A DNA stretch of 64,000 nt from the NCBI RefSeq assembly GCF_000143535.2, contig NC_037324.1, forward strand, positions 682,001 through 746,000, read 5' to 3'. The translations under genes and the position numbers were made by a program. Under the pieces are notes generated by a model. That model saw nothing but the letters and a program-made list of their open reading frames with translations, was not told the origin of the DNA and searched no databases. The stretch is from Botrytis cinerea B05.10. Its lineage: Eukaryota; Ascomycota; Leotiomycetes; Helotiales; Sclerotiniaceae. This document shows positions 33,820-37,949 of the stretch, in pieces (within the stretch, counting starts at the first letter, position 1; the number at the start of each line of letters is the position of its first letter).

Positions 33820-36800
33820 CTATTGCTTCTCCCTATAAATCATTAACGTTAGCATATTGCAATTACACAAGGACATTCAATTGGTAATAACTTACAAATC
33901 AGCGAGAATCTTCTCTCCCTTAACACGTGCTGATGCAAAGTCACCAACCATATAGAAAGCACCTTCTGGCAAATCATCACCCTCTCCGTTCATGATAGAT
34001 TTGAAACTGGAGATTGTGGTCTTCAAGTCAACGAGAACACCCTCGATACCGGTGAAAACGTGTGCGACGGTAAATGGTTGAGACAAGAATCTTTGCAATT
34101 TACGGGCACGCTCGACAGTCAACTTATCAGCTTCTGACAATTCATCCATACCGAGAATGGCAATGATATCTTGGAGGGACTTGTACTCTTGCAACATTTG
34201 TTGGACACGGGTGGCGGTATCGTAGTGATCTTGTCCGACAACACGAGGATCCAACATACGGGATTTGGAGTCAAGGGGATCGACAGCTGGGTAAATACCC
34301 AACTCAGAGATACCACGGGACAAGACAGTGGTGGCGTCCAAATGGGCGAAGGTAGTAGCAGGGGCAGGATCAGTCAAATCATCAGCTGGTACGTAGACAG
34401 CTTGGACGGAGGTAATGGAACCCTTGGTGGTGGTGGTAATACGTTCTTGCATAAGACCCATGTCGACGGCGAGAGTAGGTTGGTAACCGACAGCAGAAGG
34501 AATTCTACCAAGGAGCGCACTGACTTCAGATCCAGCTTGAGTAAATCGGAAAATGTTATCAATAAAGAGCAAAACTAGTTAAAAAAGTTAGCAAATTTCA
34601 TTTTCCGATGGATACAGATCTAGAAAAACTCACCATCTTGTCCCTGTTCTCGGAACTCTTCAGCTATCGTTAACTAAATGTTTGAATAGTTATTAGTAAT
34701 TGTACATAGATATAAGTTGTATTGGTTCCAAGATGACTTTGTGAAATGTGTGAAAGGTTATTAAGATTTGAGTCGCTCGACTCTCTTGGCATGAGACGGT
34801 GTAGCCTTATGTCTTCTCAAGTTGTAATCATTGCCGAAAGCCTTGTCGCATGGGGAGCAATAATGAGTCTTGTTAGCCTTTGCAGCATCACGAACAGCAG
34901 CATAGGCGATGACACCATTAGACGGTGCAGACTTCATAACACCAGCCAGACGATCTGCATGAGAGGATGTGAGGATATGCTTCTTGAGAGCTGAATCACT
35001 CTGCAAAGCAATCTCACATGTATCGCAATAGAAACGACGAAGCTCCCTCGATTTGTTTTGACTCTTAGCAGCAGTCTTGTTGACCTTGTCCTGGTTGTTC
35101 TCAGACCACTTCCTCTTGTCTATGCGAACCTTCAGAATGTAAGCTTCTGGATCAGCAGCACGTCTCTTTGCTCGATGTTTCCGACTGTTTATATTGCCTA
35201 GTTCTGTGGCTCTTGCAGCACGAATAGCAGCAACAGCTTCAAGTTCTTCTTTGCTGAGAGTGAAACCTCCTCGAATGGCCTCCTTCAGTGAGAGATGAGA
35301 GCATAAAGGTTTCCACTCGACTGTATCTCGACGCCAGATGTATAGATGTCTGAGGTACATATCTGTGATGGCAGCGATGCAAGCGTGAAACATGATAGTG
35401 AACATTGCCTCAAGGGCTAAGAACCGAGCTCGAACACGAGGGACAAGGCCGATTGTTGGCGTTGGACTCCAACAAAGTACTCCACGGTGAGAGATATGGT
35501 AGTTGTCTTCGAATGCTTGTTTGACGAAGCGTGGAAGATTGCTAGCACCTGGCTTGTAATAGTGGAGTCTGCTAGCGACACCATTCAATGAAGACGTCCC
35601 TGATCCAATATATAGTAATGGTTGGCAACCTGCCTTTTCAAACAATAGAGCGTATATACCCCACGTTTGACTAGATGGTGAAGGTAGACTTTTGAAAAAC
35701 GCGATCGTAGGTGGCTTGTTTGCTGCAAGAATAGAGCCAAGATTCGGAGCCAAAGACAGAGGTGAACAATCGGCAATAATATCGTAATTACTACGGTCTT
35801 TGAACAGTTCTCTGAGGTCAGGGTTTATATACCAGTGGGGAGCGTCAACGTTGACAATCCTGAATGTCAGGTCATCGACAAGGTTGATTGACGTTGAAGA
35901 GGTCAAGCTCTTGATTGAAGACTTGGCCGATATTTGGCCCAACAACTTCGCAGATGTGCCAAACAAAGTTGCAGATTGAGCCAAGCCAGAAGATTGACCA
36001 GAAGAGAGACAATCGACAAGGTTGATTGACGCTGAAGAGATCAAGCTTTTGGTAGAAGAGTTGTTAAACTTGGCCGACCATTGGCTAGTTGCAGGATGAT
36101 CAACAACGTTGAAGCTCGAGTATTTGATGGCAGACTCGACCAAAGGTTGGCTTGATGTTACAAATGGTTGACCAGACTTGAACGATTGGCCAGTTGTGGG
36201 ACCATCGACAACGTCGATAGACTCAAACGATGTTTTGTCCAATTGACCCAAAGACTCTGAAGGTTTTGAGGTTGTTGAGATTGAGGGTTTGATGGTAGAA
36301 CCGACCAAAAATTGACTTGACGATTGTTCAAACAACTTGGTCGATACTGAGAGAGCTTGTGGGTTTGTCTTCAACCAAGTCTTCAACAAAGAAGTTGAAC
36401 CATGATTTGGTTCGAAGGACGTTGACTTCGATTTGGACTTCGACTTCAACTTCGACATTGTCTTTGGCTTCCACCCGCACGATCCGATCGATTACGACCA
36501 ACCTTCCTTGAGATTCGACTTCGATCTCGACTTCTTGGTGACATTACGAAGAAGAAAAAGAGGAAGAGGAAAAGAAGATAAAAGTATTGAAACTCCATTG
36601 CGAGAGCAAGAGTGCAGGCGGAAAGTGCGATGGGAAAATATGAAAGCATTGAAGGTATGAGATATCAAGGAAGGTAGGAAGGTGTTGAGGGAAGGTATGA
36701 AGTTAATAAGGGAAGGCATGAAGGTGTTGAGGGAATTTATGAACGTATCAAGGAAATGTGAGGAGTAAATAAGAGGTGGGGAAAGGTGCCATAGTGGATA

Positions 36801-37949
36801 GGAATAGAAAAAAACAACAACAAAAAATGATACATACGCCAGTAAGAGCAACACGAGCACGAGCTCCGGGAGGCTCGTTCATTTGACCGAAGACCAAAGC
36901 GACCTTGGAGTCTCCATCAAGTTGGATGACGGAGGTCTCTTGCATCTCCTTGTACAAATCGTTACCCTCACGAGTACGCTCACCAACACCAGTGAAAACG
37001 GAGTAACCACCGTGTGCCTTGGCGATGTTGTTAATCAACTCTTGAATGAACACAGTCTTTCCGACACCGGCTCCTCCGAAGAGACCAATCTTTCCACCAC
37101 GAGCGTAAGGAGCGAGTAAATCGACGACCTTGATACCAGTGACCAAAACTTCGGCAGCGGTAGATTGTTCAGTGAAAGGTGGGGCATCGGCGTGAATTGG
37201 TAGTCTCTTGTCACACTTAATGGGTCCACGTTCATCGATTGGGTCACCAGTAACGTTCATGATACGACCGAGGGTTCCTGCACCGACTGGTACCGTGATT
37301 GGGGCTCCAGTGTCGGTTGCGCGGTGACCACGGACTAAACCTTCGGTACCTATAAACGAGTTGAGTCAATCTTTGTACTTTTATCCTTCAAAGTCGAGTT
37401 CTCTTACCATCCATAGCAATAGTTCTGACGACATTCTCTCCCAAATGTTGCTGTTGCCCGTGTCAGTCCGTGTTCGACGTTTATTTATTCCTTGTATTGT
37501 TGACGTACTGCGACCTCAAGGATGAGTTTGTTACCACCGTTAGTGGTCTCGAGGGCGTTAAGAATGGGTGGGAGCTTCTCGGTATCGAATTTAACTGTTC
37601 AGATGTGGTCAGTATGCAGTTGCAGGGTACTTAAAGCTCGTCCCCCATATGTTCCCTAGATCCGGAGTTTGACGTCGTTGCCGAGAAAGAATTTTCCATG
37701 CCACTTACCATCAACGACGGCACCAATGACTTGATGGATCTTGCCGTGTACTGCACTATCACTAGCAAATCTAGCAGAAGCAGCTCTTAAACCAGTTGAC
37801 AAAGCTGGTCTGAAGGCGCTTCTTGAAGCCCGGAGGGCAGAGTTTTGGATGGCGCTATAGAAAGTTTCAAAGTTAGCTCAATTGGACCGTTGCCACCCAT
37901 TGCGGCAGGGCTAAATATTTTGAAATATAAGTACGTACCTCCTGAACAT
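33820..37949 (-). CDS. ATP2: ATP synthase F1 subunit beta, mitochondrial
   Basis: Eight exons resolved by splice sites and family alignment: 37949-37939, 37854-37709, 37594-37509, 37450-37408, 37349-36838, 34673-34634, 34574-33896 and 33832-33820, giving 509 residues. This is the catalytic beta subunit of F1. A mitochondrial presequence ([18 protein letters not shown]) precedes the conserved core: P-loop GGAGVGKT, the GERTREGND catalytic glutamate loop, ALTGLTIAEEF and [17 protein letters not shown]. The C-terminus is ADLEKQ after the last splice. Exon 1 is only 11 nt and exon 8 only 13 nt. Six introns are 58-114 nt; intron 5 is 2164 nt and carries a complete ORF. CACGTG lies at 38086-38091 upstream. 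Confidence 0.96.
34674..36837 (-). mobile_element. Giant ATP2 intron 5 hosting a GIY-YIG ORF, candidate homing element
   Basis: Spliceosomal-type boundaries: donor GTATGT after ...ACTGGC at 36838 and acceptor TTTAG before TTAACG at 34673. The intron is phase 0, between G266 and L267 of the beta subunit. It is about 20-35 times longer than most other introns here. The internal ORF begins 380 nt after the donor and stops 87 nt before the acceptor. No terminal inverted repeats or group I intron core were recognised by eye. Confidence 0.7.
34761..36458 (-). CDS. GIY-YIG-type nuclease with two C2H2 zinc fingers, encoded inside the ATP2 intron
   Basis: A complete 565-residue ORF without introns, on the same strand as ATP2. 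Residues 1-200 are Ser/Thr-rich and contain degenerate repeats ending in INLVD or NVVD. A GIY-YIG-like domain spans about 265-400: GIY 267-269, YIG 283-285, the conserved arginine probably R297 and the metal-binding glutamate probably E350. The C-terminus has a basic region (430-470) and two U1-type fingers, C478/C481/H494/H500 and C534/C537/H550/H556 (C-x2-C-x12-H-x5-H). GIY-YIG domains occur in homing endonucleases and repair nucleases; zinc fingers would supply DNA binding. It may need its own promoter or intron retention for expression. Activity is inferred from motifs only. Confidence 0.85.
   Translation of the reverse strand: MSKLKSKSKSKSTSFEPNHGSTSLLKTWLKTNPQALSVSTKLFEQSSSQFLVGSTIKPSISTTSKPSESLGQLDKTSFESIDVVDGPTTGQSFKSGQPFVTSSQPLVESAIKYSSFNVVDHPATSQWSAKFNNSSTKSLISSASINLVDCLSSGQSSGLAQSATLFGTSAKLLGQISAKSSIKSLTSSTSINLVDDLTFRIVNVDAPHWYINPDLRELFKDRSNYDIIADCSPLSLAPNLGSILAANKPPTIAFFKSLPSPSSQTWGIYALLFEKAGCQPLLYIGSGTSSLNGVASRLHYYKPGASNLPRFVKQAFEDNYHISHRGVLCWSPTPTIGLVPRVRARFLALEAMFTIMFHACIAAITDMYLRHLYIWRRDTVEWKPLCSHLSLKEAIRGGFTLSKEELEAVAAIRAARATELGNINSRKHRAKRRAADPEAYILKVRIDKRKWSENNQDKVNKTAAKSQNKSRELRRFYCDTCEIALQSDSALKKHILTSSHADRLAGVMKSAPSNGVIAYAAVRDAAKANKTHYCSPCDKAFGNDYNLRRHKATPSHAKRVERLKS

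Follow-up and report, generated by a model that had tools for sequence, protein, structure and literature searches.

Genes for HNH, GIY-YIG and other endonucleases have been described within introns bearing spliceosomal sites in mirusviruses; 64.1% of these "shintrons" lie in virion morphogenesis genes, and the available part of the report presents the association of endonucleases with spliceosomal introns as previously unobserved (PMC12768974, Nat Microbiol 2025). Here we analyzed a 64,000-nucleotide (nt) stretch of the Botrytis cinerea B05.10 genome (contig NC_037324.1, positions 682,001 to 746,000 of the forward strand; hereafter, the window), in which the fifth intron of ATP2, encoding the mitochondrial F1-ATPase beta subunit, harbors an open reading frame (ORF) for a putative GIY-YIG/C2H2 homing endonuclease, with relatives in introns of VMA1 and SSB1 (Hsp70). 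On the sequence evidence, the ATP2, VMA1 and SSB1 elements are likely to be nuclear homing elements seated in spliceosomal introns, with the 3' exon flank converted or recoded in a way that would mark the side of cleavage. Like the published shintrons, as far as their available description goes, these introns combine a nested putative endonuclease ORF with spliceosomal sites, no group I/II signature and a preference for certain target genes. Unlike them, they occupy nuclear housekeeping genes of a cellular organism instead of virus genomes, and they are distinguished by insertion at homologous sites of paralogues and by a rare-codon tract in the 3' exon. These introns may work like shintrons, a class defined by mobility and nuclease activity. 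Beyond PMC12768974, the literature matches listed (titles and abstract openings, with few subscription papers or preprints) included none describing endonuclease genes within spliceosomal introns in the nuclear genes of cellular organisms, and the name "shintron" retrieved only one other paper, an unrelated one.

Other homing systems compare as follows, according to the available parts of the respective reports. The WHO elements of Torulaspora and Lachancea are likewise nuclear, combine a nuclease with a C-terminal zinc finger and target a conserved metabolic gene, FBA1; each brings along a 3' portion of its host gene that resists cleavage, showing that a nuclear fungal homing element can do so, where the introns studied here are followed by a rare-codon 3' tract in all three hosts. 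However, WHO elements are intein-like, sit downstream of FBA1 and not in an intron, and leave duplicated 3' gene fragments (PMC7282813, eLife 2020). An endonuclease of this intein-like type was discarded for our locus, as no Hint or LAGLIDADG domain occurs among the 11 Pfam families listed for the ATP2-intron protein. The GIY-YIG endonucleases found in group I introns, such as I-TevI of phage T4 and those of fungal mitochondria, share with the ATP2 copy both residence in an intron and the order of GIY/YIG, Arg and Glu, residues with established roles in GIY-YIG homing endonucleases, whereas the ATP2 copy differs in its nuclear spliceosomal intron, in which no self-splicing RNA was found, in its C2H2 tail and in having no GIY-YIG match in Pfam. 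A GIY-YIG gene also resides in the nuclear genome of Ustilago maydis, but that insertion is telomeric and of mitochondrial origin, has a mutated active site and truncates a RecQ helicase gene (PMC7593156). Finally, nuclear inteins (VMA1, PRP8) are homing elements at conserved sites of core proteins but are spliced as protein, and in VMA1 they occupy sites close to the nucleotide-binding loop, upstream of the present one (PMC2814812).

The ATP2 coding region comprises seven exons on the minus strand of the window (33892..37949). Intron 5 (34674..36837, minus strand; GTATGT...TAG) spans 2164 nt, the other five measuring 58-114 nt, and exhibits the donor GGC|GTATGT, the acceptor TTTAG|TTAACG and, 5' of the latter, the branch-point-like sequence TACTAATAAC (34689..34698, minus strand). 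Removal of all six introns yields an unbroken F1-beta protein of 506 amino acids (aa), residues 12-505 of which align with solved F1-beta chains in the best alignment row. An Rfam search returned nothing up to an E-value (E) of 1, either in positions 34600-36900 or at loci L004 and L005 (the latter being SSB1), which discards a group I/II mobile intron. An earlier note, drawn up from the sequence alone, had described a 2164-nt spliceosomal intron in an otherwise compact nuclear gene, at a conserved site of a core gene; canonical splice signals, the restored frame and the empty Rfam search bear this out, and the intron indeed splits the motif ALTG|LTIAEE at a position homologous to the VMA1 site.

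Within the intron, the ORF predicts a protein of 565 aa (34761..36458, minus strand, stop codon included). Its 565 codons far exceed the 181 codons of the longest ATG ORF obtained on the sense strand when the intron was shuffled 300 times with dinucleotides preserved, which rules out a chance ORF and agrees with the complete, sense-oriented nested frame noted earlier. A catalytic-like GIY...YIG...R...E region extends over residues 266-350 (35409..35663, minus strand), where a three-way alignment with the VMA1 and SSB1 copies reveals invariant Y269, Y283, G285, R297 and E350; the motifs themselves read GIY/GVY/AVY and YIG/YIG/YCG, with R297 and E350 present, in order, in all three. The two C2H2 fingers noted earlier are confirmed at residues 475-501 (34956..35036, minus strand; best stretch of PF25095) and 532-553 (34800..34865, minus strand; best stretch of PF12171), since both families exceed their Pfam cut-offs on the whole protein (36.4 bits against 27.7 and 32.7 bits against 22.6, each over two stretches). 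The N-terminal extension, which contains imperfect repeats (35874..36222, minus strand), is without counterpart in the other two copies. A 21-bp repeat also occurs in intron 5 upstream of the ORF (window 36651-36768).

Searches of the genome (42,630,066 bases, 18 contigs) with each of the three proteins as query, the counts of which are lower bounds, returned at least three long family members, all of them sense-oriented and housed in spliceosomal introns that interrupt core genes. In a fungus of this kind, ATP2 and VMA1 are essential; yeast does not strictly require SSB1. The VMA1 copy (48% identity) resides in a 1715-nt GC-AG intron and the shorter SSB1 copy (33% identity) in a 1389-nt GT-AG intron. 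As in ATP2 (GT-AG), spliceosomal donor and acceptor are present and removal restores the frame; GC-AG ends are found in an ordinary 59-nt SSB1 intron too. In these two introns, the longest ATG ORFs reach 408 (VMA1) and 323 (SSB1) codons, exceeding the maxima of 194 and 247 in 300 shuffles each. Nonsynonymous versus synonymous divergence between the ATP2 and VMA1 copies (dN 0.56, dS 2.03, dN/dS about 0.28) makes the protein look constrained, with dS near saturation; dS was not computable for the two pairs involving the SSB1 copy. In addition, a 247-bp fragment matching the 5' portion of the SSB1 element (87% identity, start codon region included) lies at L017 4420-4666, within a predicted 325-nt intron (L017 4381-4705, C7, minus strand) of a gene that is transporter-like by eye. 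The search for paralogues called for in the earlier note thus added two long relatives and one fragment, and the opposing picture it had sketched, of many unlinked relatives outside introns, fails in this genome, where all three long members found are intronic. As judged from sequence, these are probable DNA-cutting homing genes.

Other candidate relatives were discarded. The only PF01541 match found in the genome (L018 4133-4276, C2) is probably SLX1 rather than a family member, because a RING-like stretch adjoins it, and a weak match on C6 (E 0.068) has, by eye, only a zinc-finger stretch in common. No relative was confirmed in the phage collection, nor in the viral and prokaryote collections, each scanned with two short peptide patterns; within that scope, an origin from phage, prokaryote or virus, as judged by close similarity, was rejected. 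In SSB1, a 14-nt exon separates a 55-nt intron from the endonuclease intron (L005 3964-4032); introns so close together may mark repeated insertion at one target.

The insertion points in ATP2 (ALTG|LTIAEE) and VMA1 (IYTG|LTIGEY) occupy homologous positions of paralogous ATPases, 2 nt apart. When the two coding sequences were compared in ungapped 40-nt windows, the insertion tract was the best match (30/40), and all six pairs scoring at least 29 fell on the insertion-site diagonal. Neither of the paralogues ATP1 and VMA2 has an intron inside this motif or a strong rare-codon tract in its region (codon adaptation z-scores of -1.96 and +0.59, respectively); an ordinary 52-nt intron lies 31 nt upstream of the motif in VMA2.

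Codon adaptation was scored in 13-codon windows (~39 nt) of six genes, VMA2 with a partial coding region, which provided 27 control junctions. Immediately 3' of the endonuclease intron, z dropped to -6.06 in ATP2, -6.31 in VMA1 and -4.16 in SSB1, with normal values on the left flank (+0.10, +0.73 and +1.09). The right flank scored -2.92 or higher at all 27 control junctions, and +1.21 and +1.25 at the only two long control introns, those of ATP1 (395 nt) and SSA1 (461 nt). In the three hosts, the lowest 13-codon window of the whole coding sequence begins within three codons of the insertion (offsets -2, 0 and +3). Within-gene synonymous permutation evidenced how unusual these windows are (p 0.0003 for ATP2, 0.0003 for VMA1 and 0.0007 for SSB1), and an equally low window anywhere in the gene was also rare in ATP2 and SSB1 (p 0.001 in both). 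Among 3177 windows elsewhere in the six genes, one was as low as the ATP2 tract and none as low as that of VMA1. The tract holds the sole CAG and sole ATA codons of ATP2, and the sole CAG and sole ACG codons of VMA1. In ATP2 it corresponds to exon 6 (34634..34673, minus strand), a 40-nt exon directly 3' of the endonuclease intron that encodes 13 residues; the z of -6.06 on the left flank of intron 6 reflects this same tract. Low left flanks at VMA1 intron 4 (-4.13) and ATP1 intron 1 (-4.82) are unexplained by the homing model; stretches of low codon adaptation outside the tracts map, in coding coordinates, to VMA1 codons about 52-65, the former of these flanks, and to ATP1 codons about 2-23.

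At the protein level, the SSB1 tract encodes the same 13 residues as the solved chains 7olc and 5tky, and its changes are therefore synonymous relative to both; the third chain shown, 9r9o, differs at two residues. Of the 13 residues in the VMA1 tract, 9 agree with the three solved V-ATPase A chains shown. Compared with five solved F1-beta chains (AEYFRDEEGQD), at least three of which look like one protein, the ATP2 tract lacks one residue, and its spacing equals that of GEYFRDQGKD in VMA1. This loss is compatible with a flank acquired from VMA1 as well as with a scar left by in-frame repair.

Of the selfish and domesticated readings raised in the earlier note, these data support the selfish one and add to it the homologous insertion sites of ATP2 and VMA1 and the rare-codon tract after each insertion. 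In the scenario we favor, the intron would provide a harmless seat for the gene of a GIY-YIG nuclease with DNA-binding C2H2 fingers. The nuclease would cut element-free host alleles 3' of the insertion point, and repair of the break would copy the intron and the nuclease gene, together with the neighboring 3' exon sequence, into the broken allele. The core gene would keep working because the spliceosome excises the intron. The altered 3' flank would then be a footprint of co-conversion or resistance, and may also block self-cutting. Transfer between VMA1 and ATP2 may have occurred because both share the ATPase motif. The rare-codon flank after each copy hints at selfish elements of natural origin that resemble a self-spreading drive equipped with its own repaired copy of the target. 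Engineered home-and-rescue drives reportedly carry a recoded rescue. We tentatively raise, as something short of an even chance, that the family is a natural counterpart of this plan, on which drives have been engineered (PMC7968924), with a recoded downstream exon that rescues the gene and immunizes the carrier allele, and that it jumped between ATPase paralogues via the shared motif.

If true, a free-living eukaryote with such a family in its core nuclear genes would offer a direct and testable route for the gain and spread of spliceosomal introns, a question that has long been open. The tract of rare codons in the exon would then serve as a fingerprint of past cutting and repair that could be searched for in any genome, and nature would supply a counterpart to engineered drives that carry part of an essential target gene in recoded form.

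Several observations weigh against homing as an explanation. Regarding the protein, the earlier GIY/YIG assignment stands for the motif, Arg and Glu, invariant in the three paralogues, but not for the profile, as no GIY-YIG-labeled family was matched in Pfam, NCBIfam or PHROGs. PF01541 was absent from the whole ATP2 copy at E up to 1, and, at E up to 10, from its residues 196-420 and from the VMA1 and SSB1 copies, a range in which HMMER filters drop most weak matches; the same profile made eight matches on phage T4, five of them above the cut-off. Alignment with hhalign placed GIY and YIG in register with T4 I-TevI at P 0.033 and out of register with eight T4 GIY-YIG members (P 0.082 and 0.086). 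Single-sequence structure models were poor (mean predicted local distance difference test, pLDDT, of 36.5 for residues 196-420 and 49.7 for 258-372), and Foldseek returned nothing at E 0.001 with the 258-372 model. The domain call is consequently made at the level of motif and spacing, for want of a profile or fold match; phrog_26940, a PHROG of unannotated function, overlaps the GIY/YIG stretch of the VMA1 copy weakly (E 0.063). The SSB1 copy departs from both motifs (AVY...YCG), keeping the two Tyr and the Gly, and has a single finger that scores under the Pfam cut-offs. Regarding the exons, in windows of 18-30 nt the insertion tract still reaches the maximum, with other ATP2/VMA1 sites equal or within one base. 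The tract was first noticed on visual inspection of ATP2 and VMA1 and only afterwards put to the test, and permutation found a window as low anywhere in VMA1 at p 0.012. Nineteen of the 3177 windows elsewhere were as low as the SSB1 tract, the eight lowest in the N-terminal coding region of ATP1. The rare codons shared by ATP2 and VMA1 could have arisen independently, because Ile and Gln have one rare choice only, and the shorter spacing recurs in F1-beta of E. coli.

Real homing could also have left the odd flank passively, as donor sequence from another species, or from VMA1 in the case of ATP2, with no resistance role, since the intron itself interrupts the target site. Exon-flank co-conversion is known in mitochondrial elements, as the available part of one report describes (PMC8208691), and the VMA1-like spacing of the ATP2 tract fits this account. 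However, one would not expect ACG, ATA, GTA and TTA in a normally optimized donor, and no such paralogue donor was identified for the SSB1 tract; we regard a purely passive flank as somewhat unlikely.

The rare-codon tracts might instead be exonic splicing signals required by very long introns, which would still leave room for the ORFs to be homing genes or relics. Indeed, the tracts adjoin the acceptors of the three longest among the 30 introns examined, and ATP2 exon 6 is only 40 nt. This option accounts poorly for the normal 3' flanks of the 395-nt ATP1 and 461-nt SSA1 introns, although both are 3-5 times shorter than the endonuclease introns. In addition, no obvious motif common to the three tracts was seen by eye, and the ATP2 tract alters the protein, which renders a splicing role improbable.

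A slightly more improbable alternative is that these are nested genes of host type, belonging to a nuclease or DNA-binding family lodged in introns of highly expressed genes with a domesticated cellular function and no present homing. Intact ORFs, the constraint on the ATP2/VMA1 pair and the frequency of zinc fingers in fungal regulators would suit such genes, but homologous insertion points in two paralogous ATPases, rare-codon 3' flanks in all three hosts and a 247-bp fragment in the predicted intron of a fourth gene would be left unexplained. Lastly, a relic or mis-assembled transposon insertion is very hard to credit: GIY-YIG domains occur in Penelope-like retroelements too, but Pfam yields only zinc-binding families and no reverse transcriptase domain on the ATP2-intron protein, no inverted repeats link the intron ends (a 15-nt, 87% inverted pair set 72 and 84 nt in from the ends of the SSB1 intron is without counterpart in the other two introns), the ORF is constrained, and frames and host exons are intact on both sides.

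Two repeat features complete the survey of these loci. The long control introns of SSA1 (461 nt; L052 2608-2934) and ATP1 (395 nt; L055 1076-1365) consist largely of 36-37-bp tandem repeats. At the edge of the window, positions 15-505 hold a tandem repeat array of 51/105-bp units (9.1 and 4.7 copies).

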